Positions 28,053 through 43,444 of a stretch of 43,444 nucleotides of DNA are shown here, piece by piece. The notes below the pieces were generated by a model, which saw only the letters and a program-made list of their open reading frames with translations, was not told where the DNA came from and did no database searches. Positions within the stretch are counted from its first letter, which is position 1. Every line of letters starts with the position of its first letter. Position numbers and translations under genes: made by a program. Origin of the DNA: Christensenellaceae bacterium (GTDB taxonomy: Bacteria > Bacillota > Clostridia > Christensenellales > UBA1750); the NCBI GenBank assembly GCA_031280685.1, contig JAITGM010000040.1:1-43444 (forward strand), given 5' to 3'.

Positions 28053-29258
28053 TTAAAGCCTTTCCCCCCTGCCGCTTTGCAGAAGCTCGTCAAGCAGGGG
28101 CTGGCTGACCAGGATCTCATCCAGATGCAGGGTGTTGCGGATGCGCGCCAGGCGCAGGGCGGCCGGGTTTCGCGCGCCTGAAGAGGCGATGGCAAGCTCG
28201 ATGGCGCTTTTGTCATCGTCCCGAACGACGGGCAGAAAACCCCGCGCCAAAAAGCCGCTGGTGACGACGTTTTGGTAGGTCGCGCTCCAGTCGATCTGCT
28301 CCGCCAGGCGGCGGGTGCACACATCGGCCAGGCCCACGCCCAAGGCGTTGCCATGGCTGGCCGGGGTGAGGCCCAAAACCGCGATGGCGCCGACCTTTGG
28401 CAGGCCGTCCGCCTGCCCGTCGATGCGCAGGCGGCCGATCACGTTCGTATCCATGCCGGTGCCCGAAAGATCCTTGCCCATCTCATCGACCACGAGCACG
28501 TCGAGCTGCTCGAAGGGCAGCTTGGCCATCATCTGGCGGGAACGGGCGAGGAAGGCCTTGTCGAGCGCAAAGATCTCGTCGCCTGAGGCGAAGGCGAGGT
28601 CGGCGGTCTGGTCGTAACCGTCTTCCAGAACGGCCAGGCAACTCAGGATCTTGACGCTCTCAATCACTTTTTGCGAAACCCTGGGGATGTAGTCCCTAAG
28701 GCCCGAGGCACCGTAAGTGTGCATCTGGATGGCCTGGCGGTGCTTCCCCAGGCCGATGGTCAGCATCTTGACGATGCCGCTCTCGTGCTCGCCGTGAAAG
28801 TCGGTGTGGGGTTTGATGCGGTTGACCGCGATGACGCCGTCCGCCCCGAAGGCAGCCTTATCGATAAAGACCGGGATGTCGGGGTTTCCGCCCGTGGAGC
28901 CTAAGGAAACCACCTCGAGCGAAGAAAGCACGGGTGCGCCGATCTTCTCTTCGGTGATGCCGTAATCGGCCAGGACGGCGCGCTGGCCTTCGGGCGTCGC
29001 GCCGCCGTGGCTGCCCATCGCGGGGACGATGAAGCAGGATGTGCCGGCCTCGCGAAGGAGCCCGACCAAGGTCTGTGCGATGAGGGCGAGGTTGTTGATC
29101 CCTCGGGAGCCCAGGGCGAGGGCGATTCGCATCCCGGGCCGGAGCTTCGGCGCGACCGAGAGACTAAATTCGGCGCGGAGCTTTTGGGGAATGTCGCCCA
29201 GCGGGGCGGAAAGCTGCCTGAGCTTGACGCGGTGGAGCGGAACTTCGGAAAGGCGCAT
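28053..29258 (-). CDS. Divergent LarA-like (DUF2088) racemase/epimerase homologue
   Basis: The 401-residue protein has a LarA-type N-terminal domain. ALGSRGINN (Arg52) and PAMGSHGGATPEG (His84) lie where LarA has its Arg75 and His108. RIKPHTDFHG (His151) and SGIVKMLTIGLG (Lys164) correspond to His174 and the nickel-pincer-bearing Lys184, and His180 lies 16 residues after the Lys, as the nickel ligand does in LarA. The C-terminal part differs from lactate racemase (VVDEMGKDLSGTGMDTNVIGR), so its substrate probably differs. It starts 27 bases after the DUF1537 kinase, pointing to a sugar-acid substrate. The cofactor genes larB, larC and larE are not in the window. Confidence 0.78.
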   Translation of the reverse strand: MRLSEVPLHRVKLRQLSAPLGDIPQKLRAEFSLSVAPKLRPGMRIALALGSRGINNLALIAQTLVGLLREAGTSCFIVPAMGSHGGATPEGQRAVLADYGITEEKIGAPVLSSLEVVSLGSTGGNPDIPVFIDKAAFGADGVIAVNRIKPHTDFHGEHESGIVKMLTIGLGKHRQAIQMHTYGASGLRDYIPRVSQKVIESVKILSCLAVLEDGYDQTADLAFASGDEIFALDKAFLARSRQMMAKLPFEQLDVLVVDEMGKDLSGTGMDTNVIGRLRIDGQADGLPKVGAIAVLGLTPASHGNALGVGLADVCTRRLAEQIDWSATYQNVVTSGFLARGFLPVVRDDDKSAIELAIASSGARNPAALRLARIRNTLHLDEILVSQPLLDELLQSGRGERL

Positions 29259-29285
29259 GGGGAAGACCTCCTTCAGAAGGCGTTT

Positions 29286-30482
29286 TTAGTGCTGTGGTTG
29301 TGAAAGGAAGGCGGCGGCGCGCGGAATGACATCCACCGGGCCAAGACCGCCGGATTTGGTGAGGAGGGGGAGCTGCCCTGCGGGCGTTTGCGCGTGGCAG
29401 AGCACTACGCCGGGCGCAAGGGTAGAAAGCGGCTGCAGGGTTTGGCAGCGCATGGCGCGCATGGCGGCCAGCAAGGTATCCCCGCCGATGAGGAAGGGCG
29501 TGGCGGCCGGGTTTTGGGCGATGAGCAGAGCGGCGATCCTGCCTAAGGCTTCGGCGGTGGCAGCGCGGCGGGCTTCGCAGACAGGGCCTGCAACCGCCTG
29601 CGTGCGCAGGATGGCGCAGCCCGAGCGCAGGGCTTTTTCGATTTGGGCCAAGGGCAGCAGAGCCGGGTTTTCAAGCTCCCTTTCGCCCAGGGTGAGGCTG
29701 AACGCGCCGGCCCTTTCGGCAAAGCCAAGCTGGCCAAGAGAAAACTCGTTCAGGCTGCCGCAGAGCACGAGTAGCTGTGGCAGCGGGCGGAAGCCGGGCA
29801 GAGCCTTTGTGGGCAGATCCCAAAGCAAGGGCAAAAACTCGGCAAAGCCGGCGCAGCCCGCGGCAAGAGAGAAGTCCAGCGGCCGGAGCCGCCGCGCGAT
29901 AGCGGCAAGATCGGCCCGCGTTTTGCCCTCGAAGGCGTAAAGCGCCGGGAAGCGGCCGATTTTGGGCGCCTGGCCCGAGGGGACGAGCGTGAGCTCGCAG
30001 CCGAGGATATCTGGCAGCGCGGAGTGCGTTACGGGGTTGAAGGGGTCGCGGCCAAAGGGCGATTCCGCGACCGGCACGCCCTCGATGAACAGCGTGCTCC
30101 CCCGCAAATAGCGGTTCATCGCTGGGAAGGCGGGCACGAAGGCGAGATTTTGGCCAAATGCGTCGCGCAGGGCGCAAAGCTCGGGGCCCGGGTTGCCGCG
30201 CAGGGCGGAGTCGGTCTTTTTATAAGCGAAGGGGATGCCGAGCCGCCTTGCTTGGCGGGCCGCCGCAAAGCAGCGGCCGTAGGCTTCTTTGGGGGGCAAA
30301 TGGCGGCTTTCTAGGTTTAGAACGAGGGCATCCGCTCCGGCCGCGGCGAGTGGGAAGTCGCGCTCCACGGCGACCAGGGTTTCGATGCCCTGCTGCGAAA
30401 GGGCGGCGCCGCTGTCGAGCGCGCCAGTCAAATCATCGGCCAGAAGAAGGAGCCGAACAGGGCTGCCAGGCGCCGCGTTCAT
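29286..30482 (-). CDS. DUF1537 four-carbon acid-sugar kinase
   Basis: The 398-residue kinase belongs to the DUF1537 family, whose members phosphorylate D-threonate, L-threonate, D-erythronate or 3-oxo-tetronates with ATP. The N-terminal substrate domain starts LLLADDLTGALDSGAAL and has YKKTDSALRGNPGPEL and PAFPAMNRYLRGSTLFIEG, the family's core signatures. The C-terminal nucleotide domain carries PFLIGGDTLLAAMRAM and a closing GGLGPVDVI. It overlaps the preceding membrane-protein gene by four bases. With the adjacent PdxA-type dehydrogenase it would send a four-carbon sugar acid to dihydroxyacetone phosphate. The exact stereoisomer is not decidable. Confidence 0.9.
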   Translation of the reverse strand: MNAAPGSPVRLLLLADDLTGALDSGAALSQQGIETLVAVERDFPLAAAGADALVLNLESRHLPPKEAYGRCFAAARQARRLGIPFAYKKTDSALRGNPGPELCALRDAFGQNLAFVPAFPAMNRYLRGSTLFIEGVPVAESPFGRDPFNPVTHSALPDILGCELTLVPSGQAPKIGRFPALYAFEGKTRADLAAIARRLRPLDFSLAAGCAGFAEFLPLLWDLPTKALPGFRPLPQLLVLCGSLNEFSLGQLGFAERAGAFSLTLGERELENPALLPLAQIEKALRSGCAILRTQAVAGPVCEARRAATAEALGRIAALLIAQNPAATPFLIGGDTLLAAMRAMRCQTLQPLSTLAPGVVLCHAQTPAGQLPLLTKSGGLGPVDVIPRAAAFLSQPQH

Positions 30483-31090
30483 GCTCTTTCGCCCCCCTCG
30501 GCGGTTTTGAGCACCCAGAGCCCCAGGATGGCGGTGCTGAGCCCGCCCGCGAGGGCGCAGACGCCGGGGGCGAACGCCGAAAGGAAGCCCGTAGCCAGCG
30601 AGAGCAGCCCCAGCAGGGCGATGAGGATCACTGGCAGGGCGACCAGGCCGTGGATCTTGGTGCGATAGAGCATGCCCAGGGGGATGTAGTGCAGCCCGAC
30701 GATGAGCAGCACCGCCGGACCGATCTGGGCATAGAGCCTAAAAGCCCCCAAAAGCGTGCAGACCAGGCCGATCGCGCCGCCCTGCAGGCCAAAGATGAGG
30801 TTCCAGCGGCGTTCGGCCCGCCTTTCGGTCTCGCTGGGGGCTTCGCCGGCCGGCATGGCCTTGGCGCGGGCCAGGCAGGCCAGGCCGCCGCGCAGCAGCC
30901 AAATGGCCGGCAGCAAAAGGCAGACGGCCAGCGCGATGGGCAAGGCGGGCGGCAGCGGCGAAGCCAGCAGCCCAAACAGCATGAATCCGGCCCAAAGCAG
31001 CGTAAAAAACGACAGCAGGAGGATGGTTTGGCCAAGGGAGGCCTGCACGCCCCGGGTGCCACGGCGGAGGCCTTCGCGGGGCGCGCTCAT
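30479..31090 (-). CDS. Integral membrane protein in LarA/DUF1537 operon
   Basis: The 203-residue protein has about six hydrophobic segments (near 18-40, 45-63, 95-112, 118-137, 142-163 and 168-190) and a basic N-terminus. No transporter family signature was recognised, and it is small for a solute carrier. Four-base overlaps at both ends (with the pdxA-like gene and the kinase gene) show tight coupling. It could be a permease component or sensor for the pathway substrate, which is inferred from position only. Confidence 0.6.
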   Translation of the reverse strand: MSAPREGLRRGTRGVQASLGQTILLLSFFTLLWAGFMLFGLLASPLPPALPIALAVCLLLPAIWLLRGGLACLARAKAMPAGEAPSETERRAERRWNLIFGLQGGAIGLVCTLLGAFRLYAQIGPAVLLIVGLHYIPLGMLYRTKIHGLVALPVILIALLGLLSLATGFLSAFAPGVCALAGGLSTAILGLWVLKTAEGGERA

Positions 31091-32145
31091 GTGGCGGCCT
31101 CTTGGATCAGGCTGAGATGCTCCGCCATGCGCACGGCCATGAAGATCGCATCGAGCATGCTGTCTTCCCGCGAGAGGTTTTGCCCCGCGCGGTCGAAGGC
31201 CGTGCCATGATCGACCGAGGTGCGGATGATGGGCAGGCCGATGGTGCAGTTGATGCCGCGCACGGACGAGAACTGCCCCGTCTTTTCGTCCATCACGAAA
31301 CCCGAGAGCTTGACGGGGATATGCCCCTGGTCGTGGTACATGGCCACGACGATGTCGTACTGCCCTGCGAAGGCCTTGACGAAGATGGTATCGGGCGGGA
31401 TCGGTCCTTCGACGGGGATGCCCAGCGCCTGCGCCCGTTGGATGGCCGGGGTGATCGACTTATGCTCCTCAAAGCCGAAGAGACCGTTTTCGGAATTGTG
31501 CGGGTTTAGGCCGGCCACGCCGATCTTGCCCTGCAAGCCGATGAGCTTGCGGCAAAAATCAGCTAGCTGGATGGTCTTTAAAACCCGCTGCTTAGTCAGC
31601 GCGTCGCAGGCCTCGCGCATCGAGAGGTGCGTGGTGGCGTGGATGACGCGCAGCTTGGGGCTGGCCAGCAGCATGCCATAGTCCTTCGTGCCGGTGTAAT
31701 GCGAAAAGATCTCGGTATGGCCGGCGAAATGGTGCCCGGCCAGGTTGATCGCCTCTTTATTGATCGGCGCGGTGACGACAGCCTGCACGCGCTTTTCGAG
31801 CGCTAGCTGGATGGCCCGGGCGATCGCCTGGAAGGCTGCCTCCCCGGTGATGGCCTGCACCTTGCCCAGCGCCCAGCCATTTTCCTTCAGCAGGCCAAGG
31901 TCGATGTATTCGGCCACGCCGGGCTCGCCCTTGGCCTCTTCGGGCGAAGTAACGGGCCGCAGCGCGAGCGGATTGCCCAGCATTTCGTTGGTTAGGCGCA
32001 GGGAGGCCCCTTCGCCGATGAGCAGGGGGATGGAGGCGCGGTAGACTTCTTGGCTGAGCAGGGCCTTGAGGCTGACCTCAGGGCCGATGCCCGCGGCATC
32101 CCCCAGGGTGATGGCTAAAATCGGTCTCTTTTGCGCGTTTTGCAT
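31087..32145 (-). CDS. PdxA-family 4-phospho-acid dehydrogenase (PdxA2-like)
   Basis: The 352-residue metal-dependent NAD enzyme of the PdxA family has AITLGDAAGIGPEV at the start. The three metal-ligand histidine motifs are AGHTEIF, ATTHLS and YHDQGHIPVK, and VTAPINKEA forms the phosphate/substrate region. PdxA acts on 4-phospho-hydroxythreonine in vitamin B6 synthesis. PdxA2 paralogues beside DUF1537 kinases oxidise and decarboxylate 4-phospho-threonate or -erythronate to dihydroxyacetone phosphate. The neighbourhood favours PdxA2. ATG at 32145 has GAAAGGGG upstream; a longer in-frame reading is noncoding. Confidence 0.9.
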   Translation of the reverse strand: MQNAQKRPILAITLGDAAGIGPEVSLKALLSQEVYRASIPLLIGEGASLRLTNEMLGNPLALRPVTSPEEAKGEPGVAEYIDLGLLKENGWALGKVQAITGEAAFQAIARAIQLALEKRVQAVVTAPINKEAINLAGHHFAGHTEIFSHYTGTKDYGMLLASPKLRVIHATTHLSMREACDALTKQRVLKTIQLADFCRKLIGLQGKIGVAGLNPHNSENGLFGFEEHKSITPAIQRAQALGIPVEGPIPPDTIFVKAFAGQYDIVVAMYHDQGHIPVKLSGFVMDEKTGQFSSVRGINCTIGLPIIRTSVDHGTAFDRAGQNLSREDSMLDAIFMAVRMAEHLSLIQEAAT

Positions 32146-32179
32146 GGGGAAACCCCTTTCGGATTCAGTTTTTTGCCGC

Positions 32180-32959
32180 CTAGTCGCGGTTGGCGGCCCG
32201 CAGCTCGGCCCAGCTGACGCCCGGGTGCTTATATCGGCGCTCGGCGCGCCTTGCGCCTCTAAAGCCGATGGCCAGCGCCGGGCAGGACTGCGCGCAGGCC
32301 ATGCACTGCTCGCAGCGGTGGAGGAAGCGGGGCTTGCCTTCTTCGTTCGGCTCGATGTTTTGAACGGGGCAAAGCGCCGCGCAAGAGCCGCAGCCCGTGC
32401 AGGCCGCCGAAACTTCAAAAAGCTCGTCCTTTTTGGGGAGGGCGGCTCGCGAAGAAGAAAAGCTCGGGAAGAGAAAGCCCAGCGGCGGCGGGTTTTTGGG
32501 CTGTTTTTGAAGAATAAGCTCCGCGATGCGCTCGATTTTGGCCTGGGCGGCGATCGCCGACCTTTCGGAGTTTTTAAAGACGTTATAGGCCGCCAGGTAA
32601 TTGCCGGGCATTTTTAGGCTGAAGGCGGCGTGGAGCGGCAGCCCCCGGGCCACGAGGGCACGCTTGAGCTGCCCCAGGCAGTTCCCGGGCAGGCCGCCGT
32701 AATTGACCGCCGCGAAGAGATAATCGGCCCGGGGCAGTTCGGCCTGCGCGAGGAAGCGCGAAACGAGGTTCGGCATGCCCCAGAAATAGACTGGAAAGAC
32801 GAAGCCGACGCGTTCATAGGCAGCTTCGCTCGGGCGCCTGCCGCGCAGCGCGGCGGGCAGGGGGAAAAGCTCGGTATCGCCGAGCGTTTGGGCGATGGTC
32901 TTGGCCATATGCAGGCTGTTGCCCGTGCCGCTAAAGTAAAAGACAAGGTTTTTGGCCAT
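32180..32959 (-). CDS. EFR1-family flavodoxin/ferredoxin fusion
   Basis: The 259-residue cytosolic redox protein has an N-terminal flavodoxin-like domain with the FMN loop FSGTGNSLHMA and FPVYFWGMPN. The C-terminal two-[4Fe-4S] domain reads CTGCGSCAALCP and CEQCMACAQSCP. This is the EFR1 (ferrodoxin) family, common in Clostridia and mostly uncharacterised. It starts 2 bases after the LarA gene stop, so it is translationally linked to it. An electron-transfer role for the operon is plausible, for example keeping the nickel-pincer enzyme or the pathway oxidoreduction in balance, but no partner is proven. Confidence 0.85.
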   Translation of the reverse strand: MAKNLVFYFSGTGNSLHMAKTIAQTLGDTELFPLPAALRGRRPSEAAYERVGFVFPVYFWGMPNLVSRFLAQAELPRADYLFAAVNYGGLPGNCLGQLKRALVARGLPLHAAFSLKMPGNYLAAYNVFKNSERSAIAAQAKIERIAELILQKQPKNPPPLGFLFPSFSSSRAALPKKDELFEVSAACTGCGSCAALCPVQNIEPNEEGKPRFLHRCEQCMACAQSCPALAIGFRGARRAERRYKHPGVSWAELRAANRD

Positions 32960-32961
32960 GG

Positions 32962-34242
32962 TCAGCTCCTTTCGACGATGAGGGAAACGCCGTCCGGGAT
33001 GACGGCCACGCGCGCTCCCTCGCCCTTCATGGCGCGGGCGATGCCCAGCGCGCCGTCAAGGCTTTTGGCGTAGACCATCTTCATTTCCTCGACGACGGGG
33101 CGCAGAGCTTCGTTCGTTACGAAAATGACGGTGTGCCGGCTCAAGATGCGCGCTAAGATCTGCACCTGCCACTGATCGGGCAGGGTTTCTTCCATGGAGC
33201 GGGCCTCGATCTGGCGCAAGAGCGCGGCCGGGCTTTCGCATCGGGCCAGCGCTGCTTGGAATTCCTCGCCGCCGACGCCGTCTTCACAGGCTGCGCAAAG
33301 GATGATGACCGCGCCTTCCGCAGCGGCGCCCTCCGCCGTGGACATGCCCTTGACCGCCTGGTAGATGTTTTGATCAAGGGGCGCGCCGCCGTTGGAGCTG
33401 ATCACGATATCGGCTAAAAAGGGCGGGCGCACGGCGGCCGCCGCGCGCAGGGCGGCGCAGCCCGCCTCGTGAGCCGCCAGCGCGTCGCCCGCGAAGGCCG
33501 CGGCGACCTCCTTTTTGCCGTTTAGGATTACGTTTACGATGTAGCGCAGCTTTGCCATGCGGGCCGCAGCCTCCATATCGCGCTGAATGGGGTTGCCCAA
33601 AAGCACGCCGGCCACGGCGCCAGGGTCGCGGATGAAGGCGGCGCAATGGTTGCCCAGCACCGTGGCCCTTGCGCAAACCCCGGGCAGCACCGATTTGCGC
33701 CCGCCCGAAAAGCCCGCGAAGAAGTGCGGCTCGATGAAGCCTTCGGCCAGGAGCAGCTCGGTTTGAGCGGCGAGGCGGTTGATGCGAAGCTCCGCGCCGG
33801 AGGGCAGCGCCCCGAGGGAGATGAGGTTGGCTTCATCGTCACAATCGTGGATGAAAATGCGCTCGTTTTGGAGGATTTCGTCGCCAAACTTGCCGCGAAG
33901 CTCTTGGGTTGTGGTTTCGCGGTGGCAACCCGTGGCGATGAGCAGGCTGATTTGAATTTGCGGGTTGCCGCGCCGAAGCGCGGCCAGCATCTGCGGCACG
34001 ATATGGCGGCTGGGCACCGGTCTGGTGTGGTCGCTGCACAGGATCACCGCATTTTTGGCCGCCCTTGCCAGCTCTTCGAGAGGCTCGCAGCCCAGGGGCG
34101 CGGTCATCGCGGCCCGGACGAGTTCGTCCTGATCCCTTCCCTCGGGGAAAAAGCCGTGCTTAGGCTCCAGGACGGCAAGCCCTTGCCCGCCCGGCAAATC
34201 GAGGGGGAGCGAAGTTTGGCCGTAGGGGATGGAAAGGCGCAT
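32962..34242 (-). CDS. LarA-family nickel-pincer 2-hydroxyacid racemase
   Basis: The 426-residue enzyme resembles lactate racemase LarA, which moves a hydride at C2 of a hydroxyacid using a nickel pincer nucleotide tethered to a lysine. Key residues fall at or one place off the positions I recall for the Lactobacillus plantarum enzyme: D71 and R74 (SDHTRP), H107 (TGCHRE), H173 and K183 (EPHFFAGFSGGRKS), H199 (GNHC), Q295 and K298 (NIYQAVKG), W358. It is thus a bona fide LarA-type protein, although LarA homologues act on many hydroxyacids. It is first in a seven-gene operon with a DUF1537 kinase and a PdxA2-like enzyme. ATG has GGAGG 9 bases upstream. Confidence 0.9.
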   Translation of the reverse strand: MRLSIPYGQTSLPLDLPGGQGLAVLEPKHGFFPEGRDQDELVRAAMTAPLGCEPLEELARAAKNAVILCSDHTRPVPSRHIVPQMLAALRRGNPQIQISLLIATGCHRETTTQELRGKFGDEILQNERIFIHDCDDEANLISLGALPSGAELRINRLAAQTELLLAEGFIEPHFFAGFSGGRKSVLPGVCARATVLGNHCAAFIRDPGAVAGVLLGNPIQRDMEAAARMAKLRYIVNVILNGKKEVAAAFAGDALAAHEAGCAALRAAAAVRPPFLADIVISSNGGAPLDQNIYQAVKGMSTAEGAAAEGAVIILCAACEDGVGGEEFQAALARCESPAALLRQIEARSMEETLPDQWQVQILARILSRHTVIFVTNEALRPVVEEMKMVYAKSLDGALGIARAMKGEGARVAVIPDGVSLIVERS

Positions 34243-35774: not shown

Positions 35775-35803
35775 TTGACGGCGATAAAAAGAGGCCGTAT
35801 GAT
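35775..35803 (+). promoter_or_regulatory. Sigma-A promoter of the aromatic operon leader
   Basis: TTGACG (35775-35780), a 17-base spacer and TATGAT (35798-35803). Transcription should start near 35810, so a leader of about 200 bases precedes aroF. Confidence 0.8.
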
Positions 35804-35833
35804 GATTAAAATCACTTTGGGAGGGCTTTTCCC

Positions 35834-35923
35834 ATGCAGGCAAAGGCCATCGCGGCTCGGGGTTACTTTTACTTTAGCTTTACCGGCTCTGCGGGTAAGG
35901 CTCAGTTCGTTGCCGCGAAGTAA
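35834..35923 (+). CDS. Tyr/Phe-rich leader peptide of the aro operon
   Basis: The 29-codon ORF has GGGAGGG (35819-35825) 8 bases upstream of its ATG. Its middle reads Tyr-Phe-Tyr-Phe-Ser-Phe (codons at 35864-35881), five aromatic residues in six, the pathway end-products, and no Trp. It ends at TAA 35921-35923, 33 bases before an intrinsic terminator stem, and aroF follows. This is the layout of classical amino-acid attenuators such as pheL: ribosome stalling at aromatic codons when charged tRNA is scarce would alter folding of the following RNA. A longer AroF reading from 35775 overlaps it in another frame and is rejected. Confidence 0.8.
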   Translation: MQAKAIAARGYFYFSFTGSAGKAQFVAAK

Positions 35924-35956
35924 GGGAAGGCCCCAAAACCAGGCAAGAACAAACCG

Positions 35957-35987
35957 GCCCGCAGCAAAAACGCTGCGGGCTTTGTGC
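35957..35987 (+). terminator. Attenuator terminator in the aro leader
   Basis: GCCCGCAGC (35957-35965) pairs with GCTGCGGGC (35972-35980) around AAAAAC, followed by TTTGTGC. The sequence CTGCGGG at 35889-35895, inside the leader ORF just after the aromatic codons, can pair with CCCGCAG (35958-35964). It would thereby break the terminator, a candidate antiterminator. Confidence 0.75.
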
Positions 35988-36011
35988 ATCTTTGAAGAGG
36001 AGGTTTTTCAA

Positions 36012-37037
36012 ATGGTCGTCATTCTAAAGAACAGCCCGGACGAAAAGCAGCTTTCCCAGCTCACGGACTGGCTGGAGGGCATGGACATTCGAATTCAAAG
36101 AACCGTCGGCGTGCAGCAGACCATTTTGGGGCTGATCGGCGACACGACGCGGGTCGATATCGACCTGATCCGCGCGCTGGACATCGTGGCCGACGTGCGC
36201 CGCATCGCGGAGCCATACAAGAGCGCAAACCGCAAATTCCATCCGGACGACACCATCATAAGCGTTGGCGCTGGCGGCGTGACGGTCGGCGGGGGCGAAT
36301 TCAGGCTGATCGCAGGCCCTTGCTCGGTCGAGAGCGAGGAGCAGATCATCTGCGTGGCAAAGCGGGTCAAGGCGGCGGGGGCGACGATGCTGCGCGGCGG
36401 CGCCTTTAAGCCCAGAACCTCGCCCTATGCCTTCCAGGGCCTGCAGGCGGACGGCATTCGCCTGCTCGTAGAGGCGAAAAAGGAAACCGGGCTGCCCGTG
36501 GTCAGCGAGATCATGAACGCCTCGCATCTGGATCTGTTCGAAGAGGTGGACGTGATCCAGGTCGGGGCGCGCAACATGCAGAATTTCGAGCTTTTGAAGG
36601 TTCTGGGCATGCTGAACAAGCCGATTTTGCTCAAGCGCGGCCTGGCCAACACCCTGGAAGAGCTTTTGATGAGCGCAGAGTACATCATGGCCGGGGGGAA
36701 CAAGAACGTGATCCTTTGCGAGCGCGGGATTCGCACTTTTGAAACGCAGACCCGCAACACACTGGATATTTCCGCCGTGCCGGTCTTAAAGAGCCTGACG
36801 CATCTGCCGGTCGTGGTGGATCCGAGCCATTCCGGCGGCCTGGCCAGGCTGGTCAAGCCGCTTTCGTTGGCCTCCGCCGCCATCGGGGCCGACGGGCTTA
36901 TCATCGAGGTGCACAACGACCCGGCGCACGCCCTTTGCGACGGCCCGCAGTCCCTGACGCCCGAGGCCTTCGAGGATGTGGCCGCCGGGGTGCGCGCCAT
37001 CCTGCCGCACGCCTATAGGGAGGCGCCGCAGGTATGA
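36012..37037 (+). CDS. aroF: DAHP synthase, class I-beta
   Basis: The 341-residue enzyme joins phosphoenolpyruvate and erythrose 4-phosphate, the first step of aromatic amino-acid synthesis. An N-terminal ferredoxin-like regulatory domain (about 1-75) precedes the barrel with GPCSVES, LRGGAFKPRTSPYAFQG, QVGARNMQNFELL, LLKRGLANTLEELL and VVDPSHSGG. This is the type I-beta form without a fused chorismate mutase. The N-terminal domain suggests allosteric inhibition, in addition to the transcriptional control implied by the leader. ATG at 36012 has AGAGGAGG upstream. The next gene overlaps by four bases. Confidence 0.95.
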   Translation: MVVILKNSPDEKQLSQLTDWLEGMDIRIQRTVGVQQTILGLIGDTTRVDIDLIRALDIVADVRRIAEPYKSANRKFHPDDTIISVGAGGVTVGGGEFRLIAGPCSVESEEQIICVAKRVKAAGATMLRGGAFKPRTSPYAFQGLQADGIRLLVEAKKETGLPVVSEIMNASHLDLFEEVDVIQVGARNMQNFELLKVLGMLNKPILLKRGLANTLEELLMSAEYIMAGGNKNVILCERGIRTFETQTRNTLDISAVPVLKSLTHLPVVVDPSHSGGLARLVKPLSLASAAIGADGLIIEVHNDPAHALCDGPQSLTPEAFEDVAAGVRAILPHAYREAPQV

Positions 37038-38101
37038 CGCGAGAGGTGAAGGTGGGGCTTGCGCCCGGCTACGCGGTAAAGATCGGCTCCGGTCTGCTCG
37101 CAGACGCGGGGAGGGAGATTGCCGCCGTGGTCAAGCCCTGCAGGGCTGCGCTGATCAGCGACGACCGAGTTTTTGGGCTGTATGGGGAACAGACCATGGT
37201 TTCTTTAAAGGGGGCGGGCTTTGATCCCATGGCCTTTGCCTTCAAGAGTGGCGAAGGCTCGAAGGAACTTGGGACCTTGGCCCAAATTCTCGAGTTTTTG
37301 GCCGAAGAAAGGCTGACGCGCAGCGACATCGTGATTGCCCTGGGCGGCGGCGTCGTTGGGGATATGGCGGGCCTGGCGGCGAGCCTTTACCTGCGCGGGA
37401 TTCGCTTTGTGCAGATCCCCACGACCCTGCTGGCGATGGTGGATTCCTCGGTCGGCGGCAAGACCGCGGTGAACCTGCGCGCCGGCAAAAACCTTTGCGG
37501 GGCGTTTTACCAGCCCAGCCTGGTTCTCGCGGATGTGGATGCGCTGAAAACCCTGCCTGCCGAGGTTTTCGCGGGTGGCGCGGCGGAAGTCATCAAGACC
37601 GCAATGATCTTGGATGCGAGCTTGCTCCGGCTCTTGGCAGAGGGCGGACTGCGGGCCAAGCCGGCGGAAATCATCGAGCGCTGCGTCGCCCACAAGGCAA
37701 AAGTGGTCGAGGAAGACGAGAGGGACGAAGGCTGGCGGCAGATCTTGAACTTTGGGCACACCGTCGGTCACGGAATCGAGAAGCTGAGCGGCTTTGAAAT
37801 CCTGCACGGGCAGGCGGTGGCCATGGGCATGGCGGCAATCTGCAGGGCGCAGGACGCGCTTGGATGGAGTGAAAAACAGACCGTGATCTGTTTAATGCAA
37901 GCCCTGGAGGCTCACGGCCTGCCTGCCGACTGCCCTTACGCTGAGGAGGAGCTCTTTCGTGCCATCCTTTCGGATAAGAAGCGCAGGGGCGATGAGATCA
38001 CCGCCGTGACGCTGAAAAGAATAGGGCAGGCGGAGCTGAAAACGATGCCTGTTGAGGGCTTCCGCGCGTTGCTGCGCGCCGGGCTTGGGGGCAGGCCATG
38101 A
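37034..38101 (+). CDS. aroB: 3-dehydroquinate synthase
   Basis: The 355-residue NAD- and zinc-dependent enzyme of shikimate step 2 has SGEGSKELGTL, GGGVVGDMAGLAASLYLRGI, VDSSVGGKTAVN and AGGAAEVIKT (metal-ligand Glu). GHTVGHGIEKLSGF and HGQAVAMGM supply the zinc histidines. Length is normal. Start overlaps the aroF stop (ATGA) and its own stop overlaps the aroA start in the same way, so it is translationally coupled on both sides. Confidence 0.96.
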   Translation: MTREVKVGLAPGYAVKIGSGLLADAGREIAAVVKPCRAALISDDRVFGLYGEQTMVSLKGAGFDPMAFAFKSGEGSKELGTLAQILEFLAEERLTRSDIVIALGGGVVGDMAGLAASLYLRGIRFVQIPTTLLAMVDSSVGGKTAVNLRAGKNLCGAFYQPSLVLADVDALKTLPAEVFAGGAAEVIKTAMILDASLLRLLAEGGLRAKPAEIIERCVAHKAKVVEEDERDEGWRQILNFGHTVGHGIEKLSGFEILHGQAVAMGMAAICRAQDALGWSEKQTVICLMQALEAHGLPADCPYAEEELFRAILSDKKRRGDEITAVTLKRIGQAELKTMPVEGFRALLRAGLGGRP

Positions 38102-39303
38102 AGATGCGGATATGGCCGGGGGCATTGCGCGGCGAAGTGCGGGCAGTGCCGTCGAAGTCCTACGCGCACAGGGCGCTGCTCTGCGCGCTGCTCGCGGGCG
38201 AGGAATGCTCCGTTGAGCTCGAGGGACTGAACGACGATATCCGCTCTACAATGGGCTGCCTGCGCGCCTTGGGTGCGGGTGTGGAAGAAAGCCCGACTAA
38301 CCTGCGCGTCCTGCCCGGAATTTTGCCTGAAAACCCAGCGCTGGACTGCGGCGAAAGCGGCTCAACCCTGCGCTTTTTGCTGCCCATTCTCGCCGCGCTG
38401 GGCAAGGGCGCGAGTTTTTTTGGCGCGGGCAGGCTGCCGGAACGGCCGCTGGAGCCGCTTCTAGGCCAACTAAGGCAAAAAGGGATTCGCTTTGAGGGCG
38501 AAAGGCTGCCCTTACGCATGGAAGGAAGGCTGAGGCCCGGGGCGTTTGAGTTGCCGGGCAATATCTCGTCGCAATACGTTACGGGCTTGCTTTTGGCACT
38601 GCCTGTGCTCGAATGGGAGAGCAAAATCAGACTTACGTCGGTTTTGGAATCCGCGCCCTATGCCCAAATGACGCTGGATGTGCTCGCAAGCTTCGGCGTG
38701 CGTGCGGTCAAGATAAAAGAAGGGTTCGCTGTGCCCGGCGGGCAGCGCTTCCGCTCGCCCGGGCGTTACAGGGTCGAAGGGGATTGGTCCCAGGCCGCCT
38801 TTTGGGTGGCGGCAAACGCCCTGGGCTCCCAAATCAAAATCGCAGGGCTGAGTGCCCAAAGCGCGCAAGGCGATCGCGCGATTTTAGAGCTGACGCCCCG
38901 TGTTTTGGCCGGCAATAGCGAAATCAACCTCAGCGACTGCCCTGACCTGGCCCCAATTCTCTGCGTCGTGGCCGCGCTTTCCCCGGGAAATGCGCGGGTA
39001 ACCGGCATAGAGAGGCTCAGGCTGAAAGAGAGCGACCGCATTGCCTGCACGCTGGCTTGCCTGCGGGCCGTCGGCGCGAAAATCATAGAAACAGACCACG
39101 GTTTGTTGATAAACGGCAAGGAGCGGCTGCGCGGCGGCGAAGCCGATTGCTTCGGCGACCACCGCCTGGCGATGGCGCTGGCTATCGCGGCGCTTCGTTG
39201 CGAGAGTGCGGTGACGATTTTAGGCGCCGAGGCCGTGAACAAATCCTATCCTCGCTTTTTCGAGGACTTTATGAGCTTAGGGGGGAAGGCCGATGCGCTT
39301 TAA
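38098..39303 (+). CDS. aroA: 5-enolpyruvylshikimate-3-phosphate synthase
   Basis: The 401-residue enzyme is somewhat short for the family (usually about 420-430). It transfers enolpyruvyl from PEP to shikimate 3-phosphate. Visible motifs are PSKSYAHRALLCA (substrate Lys), DCGESGSTLRFLLPIL (the LRF loop), RLKESDRI and GDHRLAMALAIAAL. The start is a four-base overlap with aroB. Motif GESGSTLRF differs slightly from the GNAGTxxR seen in class I enzymes, as expected for class II-like sequences. Confidence 0.95.
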   Translation: MKMRIWPGALRGEVRAVPSKSYAHRALLCALLAGEECSVELEGLNDDIRSTMGCLRALGAGVEESPTNLRVLPGILPENPALDCGESGSTLRFLLPILAALGKGASFFGAGRLPERPLEPLLGQLRQKGIRFEGERLPLRMEGRLRPGAFELPGNISSQYVTGLLLALPVLEWESKIRLTSVLESAPYAQMTLDVLASFGVRAVKIKEGFAVPGGQRFRSPGRYRVEGDWSQAAFWVAANALGSQIKIAGLSAQSAQGDRAILELTPRVLAGNSEINLSDCPDLAPILCVVAALSPGNARVTGIERLRLKESDRIACTLACLRAVGAKIIETDHGLLINGKERLRGGEADCFGDHRLAMALAIAALRCESAVTILGAEAVNKSYPRFFEDFMSLGGKADAL

Positions 39304-40378
39304 AGGCGAAAGGTTGAGCTTTGAGGTTTTCGGGGCCTCGCACGCACCGTCAATTGGCGGCGTGGCGGAAGGGCTGCCCGCTGGAGAAGTCGTGGATTTG
39401 GCTGAATTGCAGTTTTTTTTGTTGCGGCGCGCGCCAGGCAGAGGGGAATGGGCGACAAAACGCAAGGAGGCCGACGAGCCCATCTTCCGCTCGGGGCTGA
39501 GCGAGGGCGCGCTGAGCGGCGAAGCGCTGCGCTTTGAGATACTCAACACGAATCAGCGATCAGAGGACTATGAAAAACTTGAGTTTTTGCCGCGCCCTGG
39601 CCATGCCGATTACCCGGCCTATGTCAAGAGCGGGGGCGCGGAGGATCTGCGCGGCGGCGGGCGCTATTCCGGGCGAATGACCGCGCCCCTCTGCGTTTTG
39701 GGAGGCATTGCCCTGCAGATTTTGCGGCGACGGGGCGTCGAAATCGGCGCGCACATCCTCTCTGTCGCGCAGGCGCAGGACGCAGCCTTCCCCTTCGAAA
39801 AAATCGACCCGGAGCTGCTACGTTCGGCGGCAAAAAAGCCCTTTCCCGTGCTGGACGACCATGCGGGCGAGCGGATGCGAGGCGCCATTGCCAGCGCGGC
39901 GGCGAGCGGCGATTCCGTGGGTGGCCGGGTCGAAGTCGCTGCCATCGGCCTGCCGATCGGCCTGGGCGGCCCCCTTTTTGAAGGCCTGGATGGCAGGCTG
40001 GCGCAGGCCTTTTTCGCAATCCCCGCGCTCAAAGGCGTAGAGTTTGGCGAAGGCTTTTCGCTGTGCAGGTTGCGCGGCAGCCAGGCCAACGACCCCTTCA
40101 CTCTTGAAAATGGTGAAATTGCAATCCTAAATAACCGATCGGGCGGCATTTTGGGCGGCATGAGCAGCGGCGCGCCCCTGATCGCGCGCCTGGCCTTTAA
40201 GCCGACGCCCTCCATCGCCCACGAGCAGCAAAGCGTCGATTTGCGGGCCATGCAGGGGCGGGTTTTGCGTGTGGGCGGCAGGCACGATCCCTGCATCGTG
40301 CCGCGCGCCGTACCGGTTTGCGAGGCGGTGACGGCCCTCGTCCTGCTCGATGGCCTTTTGGCGGCAGAATGGCTTTGA
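39293..40378 (+). CDS. aroC: Chorismate synthase
   Basis: The 361-residue FMN-dependent enzyme makes chorismate from EPSP. LPRPGHADYPAYVKSG and DLRGGGRYSGRMTAPL match the conserved FMN/substrate region, and NRSGGILGGMSSGAPLIARLAFKPTPSI is the core signature. The N-terminal motif is GASHAPSIGGVAEGLPAG rather than the common GESHG.., and the C-terminal part shows RHDPCIVPRAVPVCEA. Start overlaps aroA by 11 bases. It is a slightly divergent but complete family member. Confidence 0.93.
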   Translation: MRFKGERLSFEVFGASHAPSIGGVAEGLPAGEVVDLAELQFFLLRRAPGRGEWATKRKEADEPIFRSGLSEGALSGEALRFEILNTNQRSEDYEKLEFLPRPGHADYPAYVKSGGAEDLRGGGRYSGRMTAPLCVLGGIALQILRRRGVEIGAHILSVAQAQDAAFPFEKIDPELLRSAAKKPFPVLDDHAGERMRGAIASAAASGDSVGGRVEVAAIGLPIGLGGPLFEGLDGRLAQAFFAIPALKGVEFGEGFSLCRLRGSQANDPFTLENGEIAILNNRSGGILGGMSSGAPLIARLAFKPTPSIAHEQQSVDLRAMQGRVLRVGGRHDPCIVPRAVPVCEAVTALVLLDGLLAAEWL

Positions 40379-43244: not shown

Positions 43245-43444
43245 TTTAGGCGGGGCGGCAGCCGGTAACTGCGCGGCAAAATGCGCGGGGAGCCCGAATT
43301 GCGCCTTTGGGCGGCCAACGGCGAGCGTTAGCGAGCAGGCAAAGGTGGAGTGGGGGGGGGGGGGGGGGGGGTGGGGCCGCCACCAGATGAGGAGGGAGGG
43401 CGCCGCCGGGGGGGGGGGCGGCGGCGCCCGCCGCGGCGCGCGGG
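43245..43444. other. G-rich, low-complexity window end
   Basis: No gene is seen. From about 43352 there is a run of roughly twenty G residues, followed by GC-only sequence to the end. This is very unlike the rest of the window and is most simply explained as a read or assembly edge artefact. Confidence 0.6.

Follow-up and report, generated by a model that had tools for sequence, protein, structure and literature searches.

The 43,444-nucleotide stretch of Christensenellaceae bacterium DNA analyzed here (contig JAITGM010000040.1 of GenBank assembly GCA_031280685.1; hereafter the window) carries a run of six genes on the minus strand, from 34242 to 28053, with all reading frames open. In order, they encode LarA, an EFR1-family protein, a PdxA-type dehydrogenase, a membrane protein, a DUF1537 kinase and a second LarA-like protein, which belongs to group 22 of the nickel-pincer-nucleotide (NPN) isomerases. 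We lean toward reading this operon as a catabolic module for four-carbon sugar acids, with the group 22 enzyme as a C2 epimerase upstream of the kinase and a PdxA2-type dehydrogenase. We found no paper that describes the combination of a LarA homolog with DUF1537 and PdxA; the neighbor table of a 2020 survey (PMC7583248) may list the group 22 association. What results is a strong functional prediction that stays inside known families rather than a system of a new kind.

For the substrates, the reaction direction and the order of steps, we infer the following. The group 22 enzyme would interconvert D-erythronate and D-threonate by NPN-dependent C2 epimerization, via proton-coupled hydride transfer. 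The DUF1537 kinase would phosphorylate O4 of the preferred epimer, probably D-threonate. The PdxA2-type enzyme would then oxidize C3, and decarboxylation would give dihydroxyacetone phosphate (DHAP). The two acids differ solely at C2 and have C3 in common; PdxA2 oxidizes C3, and the C2 configuration is lost in the decarboxylation that yields DHAP. One kinase/dehydrogenase pair could therefore use both acids.

The group 22 enzyme

On the Pfam model Lar_N (PF09861) the group 22 protein scores only 21.2 bits, under the cut-off of 23.3. Searching the PDB by sequence alone with a group 22 profile returned just a chance-level match (9q3j, E 0.9), and the relation was settled by fold search. The AlphaFold model of the protein (predicted local distance difference test score 95.7) retrieved twelve LarA-superfamily entries at Z 19.7–21.9, with the next unrelated fold at 6.0. 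As modeled, the protein has the LarA fold.

The putative catalytic and cofactor residues H84, H151, K164 and H180 are invariant across 76 group 22 sequences. A profile alignment with LarA pairs H84 with H107 and H151 with H173 (E 0.00036, at a low probability of 37%) and leaves the cofactor lysine unpaired. The 16-residue spacing of K164 and H180 equals that of K183 and H199 in LarA, which suggests that the two pairs are equivalent. D153, which lies two residues past the second of these histidines, is present in 21 of the 22 members found in clusters, compared with 32 of 54 others. The operon homologs fall in different families (NF033504 for LarA, NF052515 for the group 22 protein), and the idea of two equivalent LarA enzymes was rejected.

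Conservation of the neighborhood

We sampled neighborhoods at the 80 top-ranking group 22 loci from named genomes, a set that is nearest to the query and not random. DUF1537 and PdxA are the two commonest neighbor families. Both lie within at most 8 kb of group 22 at 19 of the 80 loci, and 39 of the 40 such genes share its strand. Carriers are found in Bacillaceae, Clostridia, Erysipelotrichaceae, Rubrobacter, Geodermatophilus, Bacteroidota, Planctomycetota and one Bathyarchaeota bin, so that the association spans at least four bacterial phyla and one archaeon. On a Rubrobacter indicoceani plasmid, an independent annotation lists a four-carbon acid sugar kinase, pdxA and group 22. Alkalihalobacillus macyae (L057) has DUF1537, a TRAP importer, PdxA and group 22, then larE, larB and larC in the same stretch. 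On a quick tree of group 22 the DUF1537/PdxA context is clustered, yet it changes at least eight times on well-supported branches; the association has therefore been gained or lost repeatedly.

Closer to the window, a sister species of the same genus (G001) keeps PdxA, DUF1537, group 22 and the downstream gene in order on one contig. Its LarA gene stands beside smpB and nitroreductase genes, as in the window, on a second contig that ends inside LarA. Because G001 keeps both this order and the LarA flanks, the operon grouping is not due to chance. A genome of the same family (G008) has PdxA, DUF1537 and group 22 with 4-base overlaps, and two of the same order (G032 and G036) have the PdxA–DUF1537 pair with a divergent group 22 gene. 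The preliminary description expected the neighborhood to be conserved in relatives, and it is, in G001, in G008 and in distant phyla. It also proposed that LarA homologs act as epimerases in this setting. The association of a LarA homolog with DUF1537 and PdxA is indeed kept across phyla, but the conserved partner is group 22 and not LarA proper.

The membrane protein gene was not found between PdxA and DUF1537 in G001. It is therefore not a core part of the operon, and its candidacy as a conserved transporter was rejected. At its place in G001, and between LarA and smpB, there are intergenic arrays of palindrome-like repeats (GTCATTGCGAGGAGC...; L121 416–860 and L132 1600–2250).

The kinase and the dehydrogenase

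Both domains of the DUF1537 kinase (SBD_N and NBD_C) score over cut-off. Its best NCBIfam model is the D-threonate kinase DtnK (NF047819, 128 bits), with 3-oxo-tetronate kinase at 80 bits, and D-threonate kinase is the top NCBIfam model for the kinases in all three clusters scanned. Against the PDB, the PdxA protein scores 294 and 286 bits with the PdxA2-type structures 2hi1 and 6e85 and 179 bits with E. coli PdxA (1ps7), which supports a closer resemblance to PdxA2 than to canonical PdxA, as judged from sequence. The pairing of a DUF1537 kinase with PdxA2, as first described, thus holds for the PdxA2-like dehydrogenase and for a kinase nearest to D-threonate kinase among named models.

PdxA proteins are also known from vitamin B6 synthesis. 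Here pdxJ was not found in the genome (no PF03740 match), so the PdxA protein does not serve that synthesis, and a B6 role of the operon was rejected. A DUF1537 kinase is able to phosphorylate 4-hydroxy-L-threonine (PMC10971088), and PdxA2 can perform the PdxA reaction (PMC9997740). It is nonetheless highly improbable that PdxA and DUF1537 make or recycle the B6 precursor 4-hydroxythreonine phosphate, with a related hydroxyacid as the substrate of the LarA-type enzymes, since without PdxJ the route would have no exit to pyridoxine phosphate.

Evidence against the tetronate assignment

Several observations weigh against four-carbon acids as the substrates or against epimerization by group 22. 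The kinase score of 128 bits is far under the D-threonate kinase equivalog cut-off of 450, and the PdxA protein scores 320.7 bits on NF002891 (D-threonate 4-phosphate dehydrogenase), under the equivalog cut-off of 583. No sugar-acid importer was found in the operon. At most group 22 loci the stretch seen lacks DUF1537 and PdxA, so the presence of a group 22 gene is not enough to fix the substrate, and the literature found gives no measured activity for any group 22 member. Finally, a search of the 97% complete assembly gave no match for the cofactor gene larC (PF01969), and larB runs directly into larE with no larC in between.

The two sub-threshold scores would also fit a module that degrades another sugar acid, such as a C5 or C6 aldonate, an aldarate or another 2,3-dihydroxy acid. 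Group 22 would still be a C2 epimerase, and the kinase and PdxA would have shifted substrate. DUF1537 covers other acids (a 3-oxo-isoapionate kinase model is among the matches), and UxaA-type dehydratase, arabinonate dehydratase and aldolase genes stand beside group 22 elsewhere. We regard this alternative as possible but doubtful: in all three scanned clusters the kinase scores highest on the D-threonate kinase model, and the closest PDB relatives of the PdxA protein are PdxA2/D-threonate 4-phosphate dehydrogenases.

The wider contexts of group 22 include TRAP or TTT importers, UxaA/altronate-type dehydratases, arabinonate dehydratase, 2-hydroxyacid dehydrogenases, LarC and aldolases, one of them of the dihydrodipicolinate-synthase family. 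They are consistent with a role in sugar-acid metabolism, and we would limit the tetronate assignment to the DUF1537/PdxA-linked members.

Altronate dehydratase-type genes adjoin group 22 in Sulfitobacter (L147 6962–9456) and Sporomusa termitida (L148 6965–9791), a second recurring context; in Sulfitobacter, larC follows these genes directly. In Clostridia (L073 9254–11044, L081 11007–12142, L034 and L054), the genes after group 22 and a TRAP importer encode a conserved set of small proteins that have no Pfam family (126, 340, 120 and 192 amino acids), together with one MoCF-domain protein of about 186 amino acids. In a 99% complete genome of the window's order (G013; L017 and L124), group 22 neighbors genes for a TRAP importer, an aldolase-like protein and a 2-hydroxyacid dehydrogenase.

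LarA

The first gene of the operon encodes LarA proper. It aligns with the solved LarA structures 2yjg (422 bits) and 6c1w (381 bits), and the two catalytic histidines H107 and H173, the cofactor lysine K183 and the nickel histidine H199 are all present. Its specificity residues F174, F175, W358 and Q359 satisfy the F/F/W/(E or Q) rule given for the lactate-racemase (LAR) group in a 2024 survey (PMC11770544). Members of this group vary in substrate, and LAR-type enzymes weakly C2-epimerize 4-deoxy-threonate/erythronate (PMC11770544). By analogy, this activity shows that C2 epimerization of tetronate-like acids would be feasible within the LarA superfamily. The preliminary description of LarA homologs as C2 epimerases has precedent in other superfamily members, as GntE and other LarA homologs C2-epimerize sugar acids (PMC7583248, PMC11770544). 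The LarA of this operon most likely racemizes lactate or a short-chain acid of the glycerate type and is co-expressed to serve the same 2-hydroxyacid diet; a side activity on C4 acids is possible.

Geodermatophilus obscurus has LarA, DUF1537, PdxA and group 22 in a row, followed by a UxaA-type dehydratase. In Alkalihalobacillus (L043), LarA lies about 4.3 kb from the DUF1537/PdxA/group 22 trio, and in Tindallia (L077) it is near group 22. LarA is away from the trio in the remaining cases, and its neighborhoods in relatives are unrelated. The pairing of two LarA-type genes is thus real and recurrent but rare.

These results bear on whether the isomerases are functionally coupled to the rest of the operon at all. 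Both LarA-type genes might be there for lactate or other short 2-hydroxyacids and have no link to a tetronate pathway beyond lying next to it, as could be argued from the LAR residues of LarA, its unrelated neighborhoods in relatives and the lactate-oxidation genes beside the Rubrobacter cluster. We consider this unlikely. It fits LarA at most, as group 22 and LarA proper are only distantly related; the tie of group 22 to DUF1537 and PdxA recurs across the phyla named above; and even LarA is found again with the set in Geodermatophilus, as well as near it in L043.

Cofactor genes

The preliminary description looked to larBCE in the same genome. Two of the three are there: larB, identified by homology (50–66% identical to proteins encoded beside larC in relatives), and larE (TIGR00268, 331 bits). 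They lie on contig C38 (31773–33464; L007 7774–9510), larB then larE directly, behind a CbiM/PDGLE-CbiQ-ABC nickel/cobalt-type ECF importer. The third, larC, is the one without a match. It adjoins larB in those genomes of the window's order that have larB, and it is present in 17 of 20 cluster genomes versus 12 of 61 genomes of the order. Several other group 22 genomes, one of them 99% complete, have no larB and larC matches, and in G013 none of larB, larC and larE has a match over cut-off. Assembly loss, cofactor uptake or another inserter could each account for the non-detection.

One reading of the missing match in this and some other group 22 genomes is that the LarA-type enzymes are inactive in a strain that has no nickel-inserting LarC, which would make the operon a relic or a pathway that runs without epimerization. 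This is very unlikely: all reading frames and the H, H, K and H residues are intact, larB and larE stand behind the importer in the same genome, and larC could sit in an assembly gap. A bolder extension of the epimerase proposal would make the group 22 subset the tetronate 2-epimerase of a widespread bacterial and archaeal cassette with DUF1537 and PdxA2, with hosts that have no larC using an unknown nickel inserter or their neighbors' cofactor. We think it quite unlikely in that full form.

Operon layout

The six genes are tightly packed on one strand, in the order first described (Table 1). Along the operon the intervals are gaps of 2 and 34 bases, two overlaps of 4 bases each and a gap of 27 bases. 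The PdxA start is best set at the first ATG, 32145. A promoter-like site 5' of LarA (34313–34285) is weak, and such sites occur at an equal rate by chance. A gene 42 bases downstream of group 22 is possibly the last of the transcription unit.

Table 1. Genes of the operon and the gene that follows it, in window coordinates; scores in bits, with cut-offs in brackets
Feature	Coordinates	Strand	Evidence
LarA, LAR-type nickel-dependent 2-hydroxyacid racemase homolog, 426 amino acids	32962..34242	-	NF033504 563.8 (460)
EFR1-family flavodoxin-like/ferredoxin protein, 259 amino acids	32180..32959	-	NF038196 207 (75)
PdxA2-like dehydrogenase, 352 amino acids, predicted 4-phospho-D-threonate/erythronate 3-dehydrogenase	31087..32145	-	PF04166 320.7 (27), TIGR00557 327.6 (290)
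Membrane protein without family, 203 amino acids, about five hydrophobic stretches	30479..31090	-	Sub-threshold DUF7010 match alone
DUF1537 four-carbon acid sugar kinase homolog, 398 amino acids	29286..30482	-	PF07005 145.9 (25), PF17042 46.8 (28.3)
Group 22 NPN isomerase, 401 amino acids, predicted tetronate C2 epimerase	28053..29258	-	NF052515 478.8 (400)
Protein without known family, 243 amino acids	27279..28010	-	Also downstream in sister species G001

Elsewhere in the window, a by-eye reading finds a plus-strand cluster for aromatic amino acids at 35775–40378 (DAHP synthase, AroB, AroA and AroC). A run of about 20 G lies at 43352–43371, close to the contig end.

Significance and comparison with known systems

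The proposal gives a testable reaction to part of an uncharacterized branch of the LarA superfamily and links nickel-pincer chemistry to the catabolism of the four-carbon acids D-erythronate and D-threonate, with cultivable carriers named. If true, it would add a reaction to a rare class of organometallic enzymes and improve the annotation of many group 22 genes now labeled 'lactate racemase domain-containing protein'.

The nearest known pathway is the catabolism of D-threonate and D-erythronate by the DUF1537 kinases DtnK and DenK with PdxA2, reportedly described by Zhang et al. in 2016 (cited in PMC9997740 and PMC10971088), with DHAP as the expected product. The operon is similar in that a DUF1537 kinase adjoins a PdxA2-type dehydrogenase. 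It differs in adding a nickel-pincer isomerase as a conserved third member; and whereas that pathway has separate kinases, a single kinase in the operon would serve two epimers.

The second LarA-like gene is by score a member of NPN_iso_grp_22 (NCBIfam NF052515), a family without an assigned reaction, and the tetronate proposal covers its DUF1537/PdxA-linked part. The first gene belongs to the LAR group by model score and residues, like the LAR enzymes LarAH42, 43 and 51 (PMC11770544); the second is a distant branch, with about 11–17% identity over the fold. The D-gluconate 2-epimerase GntE (LarAH19/LarAH20; PMC7583248) is a LarA-superfamily sugar-acid C2 epimerase that, like the one proposed here, was suggested by gene neighborhood, and it was later proven. 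GntE falls in another LarAH group, with the signature E/V/A/H (PMC11770544), whereas group 22 has T152 and D153 after the second histidine.

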